From Ruminococcus sp. (GTDB lineage Bacteria; Bacillota; Clostridia; Oscillospirales; Ruminococcaceae): a DNA stretch of 64,000 nt. Below the pieces are notes generated by a model that saw only the letters and a program-made list of their open reading frames with translations, was not told where the DNA came from and ran no database searches. Both the position numbers and the translations under genes were made by a program. Shown here in pieces: positions 3 to 62,410 of the stretch (the stretch's first letter is position 1; every line of letters starts with the position of its first letter). The stretch spans positions 1 through 64,000 of the forward strand of contig JAJPYB010000009.1 of the NCBI GenBank assembly GCA_021205185.1. Direction: 5' to 3'.

Positions 3-1682
3 ATCGAGCGGCTTGAAAGATTTACGGATAAGCTTGCTTCTCTTACATTTTTGGACCCCGCCTGCGGTTCAGGAAACTTTTTAACCGAAACGTATATCTC
101 GCTTCGCCGACTTGAAAATAACGCATTAAAGGAAATCTACGGCGATCAGACGATTCTCTCCGATACGGGCGCATATAACCCGATAAAGGTCAGTATCAAT
201 CAGTTTTACGGAATTGAAATCAACGACTTTGCTGTGACGGTTGCAAAAACTGCGCTTTGGATTGCTGAAAGTCAGATGCTTCACGAAACGGAAGAAATCA
301 CTCAGCTTAATATTGAGTTTTTACCGCTTAAAACAAACGCCACTATTATCGAGGATAACGCATTGCGGGTAGACTGGGAAAGCGTTGTACCGAAGCATAA
401 GCTTAATTATATAATGGGCAACCCACCGTTTGCAGGAGCAAGGTTAATGAACAACAGTCAAAAGGCTGATGTTATGAACATTTTTGACGGAGTAAAAAAC
501 AACGGAAATTTAGACTACGTTGCTTGTTGGTACCAAAAGGCATCTGATTTGATGAAGGGTACATCTATAAGGTCGGCTTTAGTATCTACTAATTCTATAA
601 CACAGGGCGAACAGGTTGCTATTCTTTGGAAGCATTTATTTGAGCATGGCGTTCATATCGACTTTGCGCACAGAACATTCCGTTGGGATAGTGAAGCTAG
701 TATGAAAGCACACGTTCATTGCGTTATTGTTGGGTTTAGTATTGCTGAAAGCTCAAAAGATAGAGCGATATATGATAATGATACTGTAAAGAAAGTCAAA
801 AACATAAATGGCTATCTTGTAGAAGCAGATAGTATTTGTATTGAAAGCCGTAACAAGCCGATTTGCGCTGCGCCTGAAATAGGTATTGGCAACAAACCTA
901 TTGATGATGGGAATTATTTGTTTACAGAAGATGAGATGAATGAGTTTGTTCAGAAAGAACCAAAATCAAAAGATTATTTTAAATTGTGGTATGGTGCTTA
1001 TGAGTTTATAAATCAAAAGCCGAGATACTGTTTATGGCTTGGTGATTGTTCACCTAAAGATTTAAGGTCAATGCCTGAATGTTTAAAACGAGTGGAAAAT
1101 GTTCGAGAGTTTAGGCTTAAAAGCAAAAGTGCAGGGACTAGGAAAATCGCTGAAAAACCCACAAGATTTCACGTTGAGAATATGCCGCAAAGCACATATA
1201 TTGTTATTCCTGAAATTAGTTCCGAGAAGAGAAAATATATTCCAATGGGATTTATGACTCCTGATATAATGTGCAGTAATCGAGTGAAAATCAGTCAATA
1301 TGCAACACGGTATCATTTTGGCGTATTAACATCCAATGTTCATATGGCGTGGACTAGGGCGGTATGTGGTCGGCTAGAAATGCGGTATTGCTATTCAAAT
1401 ACAATTGTCTACAACAACTTCCCTTGGTGTAACCCCACCGACGAGCAAAAGGCAAGAATAGAGCAAACGGCGCAGGCTATACTTGACGTCAGGGCAAAGT
1501 ACCCCGACTGCTCGCTTGCAGACCTCTACGACGACCTCACAATGCCGTCGGAGCTAAGGCGAGCGCACCAGCTAAACGACCTCGCAGTTATGGCAGCTTA
1601 TGGCTTTGATAAGCACATCACCGAAAGCGAATGCGTAGCAGAGCTGATGAAAATGTATCAGGAACTGGTGGGGAAGGAGTAG
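3..1682 (+). CDS. MmeI-type class I SAM-dependent DNA methyltransferase / type IIG restriction-modification protein, 5' truncated by the window edge
   Basis: Frame is open upstream of the ORF-track start (IERLERFTDKLASLTFLDPACGSGNF). SAM motif DPACGSGNF, catalytic NPPF, TRD-like and C-terminal segments (FPWCNPTDEQKARIEQTAQAILDVRAKYPDCSLADLYD) typical of the MmeI family. The N-terminal nuclease region, if any, lies outside the window. Confidence 0.88.
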   Translation: MERLERFTDKLASLTFLDPACGSGNFLTETYISLRRLENNALKEIYGDQTILSDTGAYNPIKVSINQFYGIEINDFAVTVAKTALWIAESQMLHETEEITQLNIEFLPLKTNATIIEDNALRVDWESVVPKHKLNYIMGNPPFAGARLMNNSQKADVMNIFDGVKNNGNLDYVACWYQKASDLMKGTSIRSALVSTNSITQGEQVAILWKHLFEHGVHIDFAHRTFRWDSEASMKAHVHCVIVGFSIAESSKDRAIYDNDTVKKVKNINGYLVEADSICIESRNKPICAAPEIGIGNKPIDDGNYLFTEDEMNEFVQKEPKSKDYFKLWYGAYEFINQKPRYCLWLGDCSPKDLRSMPECLKRVENVREFRLKSKSAGTRKIAEKPTRFHVENMPQSTYIVIPEISSEKRKYIPMGFMTPDIMCSNRVKISQYATRYHFGVLTSNVHMAWTRAVCGRLEMRYCYSNTIVYNNFPWCNPTDEQKARIEQTAQAILDVRAKYPDCSLADLYDDLTMPSELRRAHQLNDLAVMAAYGFDKHITESECVAELMKMYQELVGKE

Positions 1683-1912: not shown

Positions 1913-3075
1913 ACTTAAAGAAAGTGTAAAATAATATTAAGGGGATGATATTATGCGACACTTCAAACATTTAACGTACAATGATAGATTGAAAATTGAA
2001 TCCTGGCTTAGAGTAAATGTTAGTGTTAAAGACATAGCAGTTTTTTTAGGTGTTAATGTATCTACAATTTATCGTGAAATTAAGCGTGGTCGGTACAATC
2101 GGCTTAATGGCGATACATACGAATGTGTAAATTCATATAGTCCTGATATAGCTGACTGCAAATACAGGTATAATTTAGCGGCTAAGAGTCCTGATTTGAA
2201 AATTCACGATGATTTTGAGTTCAGTAACTTTGTAGAAAACAAGATTGTAAATGATAAGTATTCTCCTGCTGCTGTTCTTGGAGAGATTGAAGACAAGAAC
2301 TTGAAATTTAAAACGAAGGTCTGTGTTTCTACTCTCTATAATTATATTTCTAAAGGTGTCTTTTCTGTTTTGAGTGATAATCATTTGCCTGTAAAAAGTA
2401 AACGCAAAAAAGCCGCTTTGTCACGAAAAGCGGCTAAGTGTTGTGCTGGAACCAGCATAGAAAAGCGACCTGATGAAATTTTACAGCGTACTTGTTTCGG
2501 TCATTGGGAAATGGATTTAGTTTGCGGCAAAAAGGAACGTGGTAAAGTTCTCCTTGTTTTCTCTGAGCGTTACAGCCGTTTTGAAATCATTAAGCTTATT
2601 GATGATAAAACAACAACGAGCGTTGTTAAAGCGATAAATGGTATTGAACGTAAGCTCGGTAAAATACGTTTCAGACAGTTGTTTAAAAGCATTACAGTTG
2701 ATAACGGCAGCGAATTTCAGGATTTTGAAGGTATTGAACATTCCACTAACGGCATACAGCGTACAAAGGTTTATTATTGTCATCCTTACAGTTCGTGGGA
2801 ACGTGGCACGAACGAAAATCAAAACAGGCTTATCCGCCGACACTATCCAAAAGGCACAAGCTTTAACAATTTAAAGCAGTCTGATGTTGACAAGCTTCAG
2901 AATTGGATAAACAACTATCCTCGTAAATTGTTTAGCTGGAGTAATTCCAACGCTGTTTTTCAAGCCTGTCTTAACAGTATTTAGTGATTTTGCACAATTT
3001 CTGCACTTCTATTTTGTGCAGTTTTACGATTTTTTGCATTTAATGTTGACATTTGCCCTTTTTCTTAAAAAGCTC
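1910..3075 (+). mobile_element. IS30-family insertion sequence (approximate boundaries)
   Basis: Contains an intact IS30-type transposase. Imperfect terminal similarity between cttaaagaaagtgtaaaa (left) and the reverse complement of the right flank tttaagaaaaagggcaaatgtcaac. Exact ends and target duplication not resolved. Confidence 0.6.
1953..2984 (+). CDS. IS30 family transposase
   Basis: N-terminal HTH (LTYNDRLKIESWLRVNVSVKDIAVFLGVNVSTIYREIKRG), DDE motifs (GHWEMDLVCG, VDNGSEF, NENQNRLIRRHYPKGTSF); RBS aagggga upstream. Confidence 0.95.
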   Translation: MRHFKHLTYNDRLKIESWLRVNVSVKDIAVFLGVNVSTIYREIKRGRYNRLNGDTYECVNSYSPDIADCKYRYNLAAKSPDLKIHDDFEFSNFVENKIVNDKYSPAAVLGEIEDKNLKFKTKVCVSTLYNYISKGVFSVLSDNHLPVKSKRKKAALSRKAAKCCAGTSIEKRPDEILQRTCFGHWEMDLVCGKKERGKVLLVFSERYSRFEIIKLIDDKTTTSVVKAINGIERKLGKIRFRQLFKSITVDNGSEFQDFEGIEHSTNGIQRTKVYYCHPYSSWERGTNENQNRLIRRHYPKGTSFNNLKQSDVDKLQNWINNYPRKLFSWSNSNAVFQACLNSI

Positions 3076-4462: not shown

Positions 4463-4891
4463 ATGAGCGAAATTACATTATTGACATCATCAAGTAGTAG
4501 TGATACAACCTCAATGCTTGTTACCTTTATTCCATTGGTATTGATTATTGTGGTATTCTACTTCCTTTTGATAAGACCGCAGAGGAAAAAGGATAAGGAA
4601 GACGCGGCAATGAGAAACAACATTCAGGTTGGCGATGAAATTGTTACAGCCGGCGGAATTATCGGAATTGTTTTCTCTATAAAGGAAGACACATTGGTTG
4701 TTGAAACAGGCGGCGACAGAAGTAAAATCAGAATCAAAAAGTGGGCGGTTTCTCAAAACCTTACAGTTCATGAACAGCAGGAGGCAGCTCGTGCAGCGGC
4801 TAAGGAAGCCAGAATGAACAAGGCTAGCAAGAAGTCTAAGGACAAAAAGATTAAGGTAGAAACTGCTGAAAGCGATATTGAAAAAGACTAA
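4463..4891 (+). CDS. yajC: Preprotein translocase subunit YajC
   Basis: Single TM followed by FYFLLIRPQRKKDKE...IQVGDEIVTAGGIIGIV; RBS aggaggc. Confidence 0.93.
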   Translation: MSEITLLTSSSSSDTTSMLVTFIPLVLIIVVFYFLLIRPQRKKDKEDAAMRNNIQVGDEIVTAGGIIGIVFSIKEDTLVVETGGDRSKIRIKKWAVSQNLTVHEQQEAARAAAKEARMNKASKKSKDKKIKVETAESDIEKD

Positions 4892-5002: not shown

Positions 5003-5401
5003 TTGCTGAAAAGAAGAAAGCATTTTAGCGTAAACCTGCCGATTTTTATATTTGTAAGCGCTCTGATAGCTATTGCCGTAACAGCACTGATTTTTACATT
5101 TGTTTCGTTTGTAATGACAAGCATTGATATTCCGAAGAATATCACACAGGTTATTTCTATTGCAGCTTTAGCGGTCGGAGCATACTTTGGCGGTTATATT
5201 TGCGCTAAGAAATACAGAAATAACGGACTGCTTCGAGGTGCGGCCTGCGGTTTTTTGGTGTTTCTGGTAGTTATGATTGCAGGCTCGTTGTTTGCGGGTA
5301 GTATGCTTAGCATATCCTCTACAACAAAGCTTTTGATTGTAATTGCAACAGGCGCTGTCGGCGGAGCGATTGGAGTTAATTCAAAAAGACGCAGATATTG
5401 A
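5003..5401 (+). CDS. TIGR04086 family membrane protein
   Basis: About four predicted TM segments, position between yajC and the SCIFF peptide as in other Clostridia; TTG start behind ggaggg. Confidence 0.75.
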   Translation: MLKRRKHFSVNLPIFIFVSALIAIAVTALIFTFVSFVMTSIDIPKNITQVISIAALAVGAYFGGYICAKKYRNNGLLRGAACGFLVFLVVMIAGSLFAGSMLSISSTTKLLIVIATGAVGGAIGVNSKRRRY

Positions 5402-5426
5402 CAACTTTGGTTTTCTTTGGTATAAT
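5398..5426 (+). promoter_or_regulatory. Perfect consensus housekeeping-sigma promoter for the SCIFF precursor
   Basis: TTGACA (5398-5403), 17-nt spacer, TATAAT (5421-5426). The -35 overlaps the TGA of the upstream CDS. Confidence 0.85.
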
Positions 5427-5478
5427 ACAAATATGAAGCTAACAGCATAATCTTATTAAAATAACAGGAGGCACAAAA

Positions 5479-5622
5479 ATGAAGCATATTAAGACAATCA
5501 ATAAGGCAAATCTTAAGGCTACTGCTGCAAAGGGCGGCTGCGGAAAATGTCAGGCATCATGCCAGTCAGCCTGCAAGACCTCATGCACTGTTGCAAATCA
5601 AAAATGTGAAAAAGACGCTTAA
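5479..5622 (+). CDS. scfA: SCIFF (six-cysteines-in-forty-five) ranthipeptide precursor
   Basis: Manual translation MKHIKTINKANLKATAAKGGCGKCQASCQSACKTSCTVANQKCEKDA*; six Cys; MKHIKT leader and CQSACKTSCTV core typical of SCIFF; RBS caggagg. Below the ORF-track size cutoff. Confidence 0.95.
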   Translation: MKHIKTINKANLKATAAKGGCGKCQASCQSACKTSCTVANQKCEKDA

Positions 5623-5637
5623 ATCTTATGTCTTTAA

Positions 5638-5670
5638 GTCCCTCGCCCTTGGTGAGGGATTTTTTTATTT
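5638..5670 (+). terminator. Rho-independent terminator after the SCIFF precursor
   Basis: tccctcgcccttggtgaggga followed by ttttttattt. Confidence 0.8.
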
Positions 5671-5774: not shown

Positions 5775-6545
5775 ATGAAGTACGAGAAGGTAAAAATAAG
5801 CGGAATAAATACGGCTGATCTTTGTGTTTTGACAGATGAGGAAAAAGAGGAGCTTTTAATCCGAGCGGAAAAGGGAGATAAGCAGGCTAAGGACAAGCTG
5901 GTGCTAGGCAATTTAAAGCTGGTATTAAGCGTTATTCAGCACTTTAACGGAAGAGGTCCGTCAGCTGACGATTTATTTGAGGTTGGAACGATAGGACTTA
6001 TAAAGGCGATAAATCGCTTTGACAGATCCAAAGGCTTTAAGCTTTCAAGCTATTGTCACCCGATGATTTTAGGTGAAATCAAACGCTTTTTGCGAGACGA
6101 TTCACCAATAAGAGTCAGCCGTTCGCTTAAAGATCTTGCGTATAAGGCTATGCAAACCAAGGAAGCACTGATTAAAATCAACAAAACAGAGCCTACGATT
6201 GACGAGATAGCGCATGAGCTTGGAGAGGACAGAGCGGACGTTGTAACAGCTCTTGAATCGGTAAGCGACCCCGTTTCGCTTTACGAGCCGGTATTTTCAG
6301 ATTCTGGCGATACTCTTTATGTACTTGATCAGATAGGCGACAACAGCGATGACGAAAGCTGGCTAAATGAGCTTTTAATCAAGGAGACAATAGCTGCTCT
6401 GTCCCAGCGAGAAAAGAAGATTTTGAATTTGAGATATTTTCAAGGCAAAACTCAGGTAGAAGTAGCTAAGGAGATAGGAATTTCACAAGCTCAGGTTTCA
6501 CGCCTTGAAAAGGGAGCGCTCGATAAAATCAAGGAAGGAATCTGA
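5775..6545 (+). CDS. sigG: RNA polymerase sporulation sigma factor SigG
   Basis: KVKISGINTADLCVLTDEEKEELL, NLKLVLSVIQHFNGRG, SPIRVSRSLKDLAYKA, RYFQGKTQVEVAKEIGISQAQVSRLEK closely resemble B. subtilis SigG as I recall it. Confidence 0.92.
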   Translation: MKYEKVKISGINTADLCVLTDEEKEELLIRAEKGDKQAKDKLVLGNLKLVLSVIQHFNGRGPSADDLFEVGTIGLIKAINRFDRSKGFKLSSYCHPMILGEIKRFLRDDSPIRVSRSLKDLAYKAMQTKEALIKINKTEPTIDEIAHELGEDRADVVTALESVSDPVSLYEPVFSDSGDTLYVLDQIGDNSDDESWLNELLIKETIAALSQREKKILNLRYFQGKTQVEVAKEIGISQAQVSRLEKGALDKIKEGI

Positions 6546-60623: not shown

Positions 60624-61406
60624 ATGGCAGTAGTATCAATGAAGCAGCTTCTTGAGGCTGGCGTACACTTCGGTCACCAGACAAGAAGATGGAATCCGAA
60701 AATGGCTCCGTACATTTTCACAGAAAGAAACGGTATTTACATTATCGACCTTCAAAAAACAGTTAAGAAGCTTGAAGAAGCTTATATGTTCATCAGAGAC
60801 ATTTCTGCTGAAGGTAAAGAGGTATTGTTTGTAGGTACCAAGAAGCAGGCAAGCGACAGCGTAAGAGAAGAAGCGCTGAGAGCTGACGCACATTACGTTA
60901 ATGCCAGATGGCTTGGCGGAATGATGACAAACTTTAAGACAATTAAGCAGAGAATCAAGAGACTTGAACAGCTTCACACAATGGCTGAGGACGGTACCTT
61001 TGACCTTCTACCAAAGAAGGAAGTTACAAAGCTCAACCTTGAAATTGAGAAGCTTGAAAAGTTCCTTGGCGGTATCAAGAATATGAAGGAGCTTCCTGGA
61101 GCGCTCTTTATTGTTGACCCGAGAAAGGAAAAGATTGCAGTAGCAGAAGCTAAGAGACTTGGCATTCCAATCGTAGCTATCGTTGATACAAACTGTGATC
61201 CTGACGAGGTTGATTATGTTATTCCAGGTAACGACGACGCTATCCGTGCGGTTAAGCTTATAGCTGGAGCTATGGCTGACGCTATTATCGAGGGAAGACA
61301 GGGCGTTGACGGCGCAGCTGAGGAGACTGAAGCTGTAGAAGAAGCAGAAGCTGAAGCTGAAGAAGTGGAGACCGAGCAAGCAGAGACTGCTGAGGACGCT
61401 GAATAG
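60624..61406 (+). CDS. rpsB: 30S ribosomal protein S2
   Basis: [43 protein letters not shown]; acidic C-terminal tail. Confidence 0.98.
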
Positions 61407-61446: not shown

Positions 61447-62361
61447 ATGGGAAAGGTATCCGTAGCGGAAATCAAAGATTTAATGAAGTCCACAGGCGTT
61501 GGCATGATGGATTGTAAGAAAGCTCTTGAAGCGGCTGATGGCGATACTGAGCAGGCTATTGTTATCCTTCGTGAGAAGGGACTTGCAACACAGGCAAAGA
61601 AGAGCGGACGCGTTTCAGCAGAGGGTATTGTAACTTCTGTTGTTGAGGGAAATGTCGGCGCAGTTGTTGAGGTTAATATCGAAACTGACTTTGCTGCAAA
61701 TAACGATGAGTTCAAGGCTTTTGTAGCAGCAGTTGCCAAGACTGTAATTGACACAAATCCTGCTGATATTGACGCACTTAAGAAGACTGTTATTTCGGGC
61801 GGTGACAAGACTGTTGAGGAAGCTTTACAGGATTTGTTCATCAAGATCAGAGAGAATATGGTTATTCGTCGTTTTAAGAGATTTGAGGGCGTTTTGGTTT
61901 CTTATGTTCATGGCGGCGGAAGCATTGGCGTTATGGTTAAGCTTGATACAGACCTTGATTATGACAAGGTTTACGAGGTTGGTAAGGACTGCGCACTTCA
62001 GGTTGCAGCTATGAATCCGGCTTACCTTGACAGAGCTTCAGTTCCTGACAGCGCTCTTGAAGAGGAAAAGAAGATTATGCTCGCTCAGATGTCTGAGGAT
62101 CCAAAAATGGCCAGCAAGCCTGAGCAGGTTAAGGTAAAGATTGTTGAAGGAAAAATTGGTAAGTTCTATTCTGAAAACTGCTTGTTGGAGCAGGCATTCG
62201 TTAAGGACGACAAGGTTTCAGTTGGCAAGTATGTTGAAGCTGCTGCTTCAAAGTTCGGCGGAGCTATCAAGGTTGTAGACTTCGTTCGTTTTGAGCGTGG
62301 CGAAGGCGTTGAAAAGAAGGCTGACAATTTCGCAGACGAAGTTGCAAGCATGATTAAGTAA
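61447..62361 (+). CDS. tsf: Translation elongation factor Ts
   Basis: VAEIKDLMKSTGVGMMDCKKALEAADGDTEQAIVILREKGLATQAKKSGRVSAEG, ETDFAANNDEFKAF. Confidence 0.98.
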   Translation: MGKVSVAEIKDLMKSTGVGMMDCKKALEAADGDTEQAIVILREKGLATQAKKSGRVSAEGIVTSVVEGNVGAVVEVNIETDFAANNDEFKAFVAAVAKTVIDTNPADIDALKKTVISGGDKTVEEALQDLFIKIRENMVIRRFKRFEGVLVSYVHGGGSIGVMVKLDTDLDYDKVYEVGKDCALQVAAMNPAYLDRASVPDSALEEEKKIMLAQMSEDPKMASKPEQVKVKIVEGKIGKFYSENCLLEQAFVKDDKVSVGKYVEAAASKFGGAIKVVDFVRFERGEGVEKKADNFADEVASMIK

Positions 62362-62382
62362 TTTATCAGAGCAATACTTTTA

Positions 62383-62410
62383 AAAGGACGGTGCTTTCCG
62401 TCCTTTTATT
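62383..62410 (+). terminator. Terminator after tsf
   Basis: aaaggacgg-tgcttt-ccgtccttt followed by tattttag. Confidence 0.8.

Follow-up and report, generated by a model that had tools for sequence, protein, structure and literature searches.

The window, the whole 64,000-nucleotide stretch analyzed here, carries both genes of a SCIFF ranthipeptide system: scfA, which encodes the precursor peptide, and scfB, which encodes the radical SAM/SPASM maturase (Table 1). The two genes have the same orientation and are separated by 56.8 kb, close to the 57 kb given in an earlier note on this DNA. Whole-genome searches of this 1.75-Mb gut bacterial genome revealed a single copy each of scfA and scfB on contig C13 (197,036 bp), with one match to TIGR03973 and one match above the cut-off to TIGR03974; no second copy of either gene was found, including the second scfB beside another scfA for which the note had allowed. 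As it had described, yajC and the TIGR04086 gene are retained upstream of scfA and are followed by a sigG-type gene. The product of the latter is a SigF/SigG-type sigma factor, for which the SigG models score best but below their cut-offs. On the other side, tsf precedes scfB, and the genes downstream of scfB encode a serine hydroxymethyltransferase and a RarA-like ATPase, an order shared with the related genome G149. Adjacency of maturase and precursor gene, a usual but not defining trait of SCIFF systems, is absent from the window. The restriction-modification gene and the IS30-like transposase near the contig start have no counterpart at that place in the relatives examined.

Table 1. Features of the window (positions count from its first nucleotide).
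Feature	Position	Strand	Basis or remark
MmeI-type restriction-modification gene	51..1682		methyltransferase and target-recognition part; at contig start
IS30-like transposase	1953..2984		upstream of the yajC cluster
yajC	4463..4891	+	TIGR00739 87 bits, cut-off 44.2; upstream neighbor of scfA conserved in the genus
TIGR04086 family membrane protein	5003..5401	+	74.4 bits, cut-off 30
scfA promoter TTGACA-N17-TATAAT, TG before -10	5398..5426	+	12/12 consensus matches; -35 overlaps the TIGR04086 stop codon
scfA ribosome-binding site AGGAGG	5466..5471	+	read straight from the sequence
scfA, 47-aa SCIFF ranthipeptide precursor	5479..5622	+	TIGR03973 80.5 bits; six Cys; Cys32/Thr34/Thr37 numbered as in characterized SCIFF peptides
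Intrinsic-terminator-like hairpin after scfA	5636..5662	+	12 pairs, 6 G-C, T-rich tail
sigG-like sporulation sigma factor, now next gene after scfA	5775..6545	+	best matches PRK08215 / TIGR02850 SigG, below cut-offs
rpsB	60624..61406	+	orthologues precede tsf in relatives; named from sequence and gene order alone
tsf (elongation factor Ts), new upstream neighbor of scfB	61447..62361	+	named from sequence and gene order alone
Intrinsic-terminator-like hairpin, tsf-scfB interval	62381..62408	+	11 pairs, 5 G-C
scfB, SCIFF radical SAM/SPASM maturase, 456 aa	62442..63812	+	TIGR03974 702 bits; PDB 5wgg E 2e-175

Translation of scfA yields exactly the peptide that the note had quoted as a six-cysteine SCIFF precursor, and its match to TIGR03973 (E 5.8e-23) exceeds the cut-off of 50 bits. 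The cysteines are located at positions 21, 24, 28, 32, 36 and 43, and the motif C32-K-T34-S-C-T37 contains the donor Cys32 together with both acceptors, Thr34 and Thr37. Cross-links have been mapped at this numbering in CteA and Tte1186a (PMC8326336, PMC8172795). ScfB exceeds the TIGR03974 cut-off of 425 bits, and remains below the cut-offs of the ‘not_ScfB’ exception model NF040492 (576.6; cut-off 855) and the PapB model (287; cut-off 340). It aligns over its full length, beginning at residue 1, to its closest solved structure, PDB 5wgg, which we take to be CteB; the aligned N-terminal part may include a leader-binding (RRE) domain. The radical SAM CX3CX2C motif reads CNLRCKYC, and the SPASM domain is recognized by TIGR04085 (74 bits; cut-off 27). 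The family model, the structural match and the ScfB tree all place the protein inside the SCIFF maturase family, as the note had proposed. Judged by every testable sequence feature, the pair is an ordinary representative of the SCIFF family, and only its arrangement is variant.

As read from its flanking signals, scfA is a self-contained transcription unit with its own promoter and terminator. The promoter is a perfect sigma-A-type element whose layout is identical in the linked relatives shown; the scfA-scfB spacers of these relatives likewise contain a hairpin followed by a T-run. We surveyed 80 Ruminococcus-type loci, in 77 of which scfA adjoins scfB. A terminator-like hairpin occupies the spacer in 74 of these 77, where shuffled spacers would give about 11; a near-consensus promoter lies no more than 150 bp from scfA in 43, where about 4 would be expected. 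Because the linked spacers carry a terminator, scfA forms a unit of its own and scfB lies behind a terminator even in the normal gene order. In the window, scfB starts 33 bp past the terminator-like hairpin of tsf, and no convincing promoter was found directly upstream of it. Transcription of scfB most likely occurs by read-through of the tsf terminator, as it would have occurred by read-through of the scfA terminator before the genes were separated; we infer that scfB has always depended on read-through, formerly from scfA and now from tsf.

To place the separation, gene order was compared across the GTDB genus sample of 15 genomes, each of which contains exactly one scfA and one scfB. The genes are linked in ten genomes (gap of about 120 bp) and split in five: the window genome (G000), G149, G154, G155 and G161. 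In the ScfB tree, the five split species form one branch inside the genus (support 100/99). The gene 3´ of scfA is sigG in all five; tsf lies 5´ of scfB in all five as well, directly in four and with an intervening Nudix gene in G155, so that the upstream gene of scfB differs among the split species. tsf has a single orthologue in 13 of the 15 genomes, with 69–98% identity in the others. Since adjacency prevails elsewhere in the family and class, adjacency is ancestral and the split is derived. Downstream of scfB, linked members of the genus have spoIIIAA, not the secD-secF genes that the note had named for many Clostridia. secD-secF were not found as ancestral downstream genes in this genus, and the gene that follows scfB varies among other Ruminococcus-type loci. 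The spoIIIA operon is still located 3´ of scfB in G161, G155 and G154 and is lost in the window genome and G149.

Two side observations concern the tsf-scfB interval. The Nudix hydrolase gene of G155 (L187:9518-9997) is represented in G154 by its two ends only and in G161 by little beyond the scfB ribosome-binding site, and nothing recognizable is left in G000 and G149. Between G154 and G161 (L185, L189), the silent divergence of tsf and scfB is 0.24–0.32, compared with about 1–2.6 for neighboring genes. This contrast points either to recombination of the tsf-scfB tract or to strong codon constraint. Because the tract may have recombined, the vertical descent of the tsf-scfB junction is uncertain.

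The linked genome G152 has the following arrangement on one contig: yajC-TIGR04086-scfA(+)-scfB-spoIIIA, with a sigG-tyrS block, preceded by spoIIGA-sigE-hsp20, in the opposite orientation (-) about 66 kb further on. Across linked genomes, sigG is located approximately 62–68 kb from scfA, also in the opposite orientation. In the window, the sigG block is inverted directly behind scfA; it is followed by a second block that ends with smc-ftsY-leuS-rpsB-tsf and then by scfB. A single inversion accounts for the scfA-sigG junction and not for tsf-scfB, so at least one further step is needed. We also rejected an IS element as the cause, as the IS30-like transposase is on the far side of yajC, at a distance from both junctions, and other genes occupy that place in the relatives examined. 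A rearrangement in the ancestor of the five-species clade of this Ruminococcus-like genus would have separated a working scfA/scfB pair, with a break point just past the scfA terminator. scfA would have stayed behind yajC-TIGR04086 as a complete unit of promoter, ribosome-binding site, open reading frame and terminator, and scfB would have moved to the 3´ side of rpsB-tsf, at first with the spoIIIA operon still behind it; the order of the steps we infer. A break at the scfA-scfB spacer leaves scfA whole.

The split is not confined to this clade. In the family sample, scfA lies directly 5´ of scfB in 113 of the 117 genomes in which both genes were located (median gap 119 bp), and the exceptions are G000, G123, G068 and G088. 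In the class sample, scfA and scfB each occur in 334 of 393 genomes. Class-wide coordinates cover the best 150 matches; among these, 97 genomes have both positions, of which 91 are linked, five are split and one is ambiguous at contig ends. The five split genomes, among the matches listed, all belong to genus g217 of family f54. All ten g217 genomes are split, including one assembled as a single contig, and so is G418 from another f54 genus (96 kb). In g217 and G418, scfA is located on the tgt-yajC side, and scfB adjoins the UbiB-like and RecJ genes; in G547 and G479, which are linked relatives, the two halves are joined. An S-layer-like gene is the first to follow scfA in the g217 genome examined. 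An NhaC-type antiporter gene lies 5´ of scfB in both G068 and G088, and these two splits may represent one event. Overall, there are at least four split lineages, with the break exactly at the scfA-scfB spacer in at least two. The same split therefore occurs elsewhere in Clostridia and the window locus is not unique.

Individual genomes in these samples have unusual genes. In the split 0.7-Mb genome G068, the ScfA peptide (L152, G068:C4 about 196420-196547) has Ala in place of Cys32 and Ser in place of Thr37 (CQSAAKTSCS), and a full-length scfB is kept; Cys32 and Thr34 are conserved in all 129 other ScfA peptides checked. G097 contains two tandem SCIFF domains in one 98-residue open frame directly 5´ of scfB (G097:C50:59309-59557), possibly a double-core SCIFF precursor; its contig C3 carries another, weaker scfA-scfB pair. 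In the single-contig genome G118, the maturase match (G118:C1:1576903-1577814) spans only positions 1–307 of 451 with an intact scfA beside it; this scfB may be truncated or frameshifted.

Could the separation have arisen from faulty assembly or binning of a single metagenome-assembled genome? Most of the nearest named relatives are metagenome-assembled, so the window genome probably is too, and contig C13 ends only some 5 kb from the scfA side. However, G149, a different species that was independently assembled, has the genes 57 kb apart in the same layout on one 70.6-kb contig, with 96% and 99% DNA identity to the window at the two junctions. In G154, G155 and G161 the genes are on different contigs, but the scfA-sigG and tsf-scfB junctions are each found on large contigs, and an independent split is present in the single-contig genome of another family. 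Junctions common to several species lead us to reject an assembly error, and an artefact is exceedingly improbable. A partnership lost after the split, with ScfA decaying or acting unmodified, or with ScfB serving another substrate, would fit G068, whose ScfA lacks Cys32 and Thr37 although scfB is still present. In the window clade, by contrast, ScfA differs from its counterparts in G149, G154, G155 and G161 by 0–2 amino-acid changes, although silent sites of scfA are near saturation against G154, G155 and G161, that is, between the two sub-branches of the split clade. scfB is tightly constrained: its dN relative to neighbor genes is 0.15–0.44 in split pairs and 0.46–0.81 in linked pairs, and its amino-acid sequence changes more slowly than those of neighbor genes in every split pair examined. 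The control for the G000-G149 pair is one gene only; a wider gene list for that pair gave no sign of relaxation, and relaxed selection on scfB after the split was rejected. ScfA and ScfB both remain under strong purifying selection, and each gene is retained in exactly one copy in every genome of the genus, the 5 split and the 10 linked ones. We regard a lost partnership at the window locus as very unlikely, and hold equally slim the prospect that ScfA functions without ScfB, or ScfB has another substrate, in some split lineages, so that the pair is not obligate, with G068 as the extreme case.

The new positions might instead be adaptive, if scfA before sigG or scfB behind tsf brought useful co-regulation with sporulation or growth rate. 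The other four species have lost part or all of the Nudix gene seen in G155, which brings scfB close to tsf, and scfB adjoined spoIIIA before the split. Against this, scfA has retained its own housekeeping-type promoter and its terminator and is thus insulated from sigG, and the other split lineages have unrelated neighbors (S-layer-type, NhaC-type antiporter, purA and nadE genes). We consider an adaptive origin very unlikely. As a whole, the locus is in all likelihood best explained as a functional SCIFF pair that was split by an ancestral rearrangement, with maturation in trans and transcription of scfB by read-through. The note had offered rearrangement or action in trans as alternatives. 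The clade-wide split and the shared junctions support rearrangement; the two are nevertheless compatible, and trans action follows from a rearrangement of the pair. By analogy with SCIFF maturases in vitro, ScfB most likely binds the ScfA leader and forms the Cys32-Thr thioether in trans.

SCIFF peptides, reportedly named by Haft and Basu in 2011, rank among the modified peptides found most widely in Clostridia, and precursor-maturase adjacency is commonly used for finding such systems. Our comparison shows that the adjacency of scfA and scfB is strongly favored yet dispensable, and genome mining by proximity will miss intact SCIFF pairs. SCIFF maturases are separate proteins that are active on free peptide in vitro (reviewed in PMC8326336, PMC8172795), so linkage is not expected as a biochemical need. 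The suggestion that the locus is a natural test of linkage is accordingly only partly new, because trans action was already implied by this work in vitro and the split occurs elsewhere; in this respect the advance is modest. The repeated occurrence of the split, and the insulation of scfA as its likely reason, appear to be new; neither was found in a limited literature search. A strong transcription unit of its own for scfA allows precursor and enzyme to be produced in different amounts, and a genus that contains closely related split and linked species offers a clean comparison of expression and product.

Compared with CteA/CteB of Clostridium thermocellum and Tte1186a/Tte1186 of Caldanaerobacter, the window pair is alike in protein families, six cysteines and the Cys32/Thr34/Thr37 numbering. 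The known genes are adjacent, whereas those of the window are about 57 kb apart, with tsf instead of scfA preceding scfB. The f54 splits (all ten g217 genomes and G418) resemble the window in having a break at the scfA-scfB spacer, an scfA that is still near yajC and an scfB that remains with its old downstream genes. They differ in having approximately 60–96 kb between the genes and an S-layer-like gene first behind scfA, where the window has the sigG to tsf block with an inversion. PapA/PapB (freyrasin) shares with the window pair radical SAM/SPASM thioether chemistry on Cys-rich peptides; in contrast, the window maturase falls below the PapB cut-off and its peptide has the SCIFF Cys/Thr pattern rather than Cys-X3-Asp.
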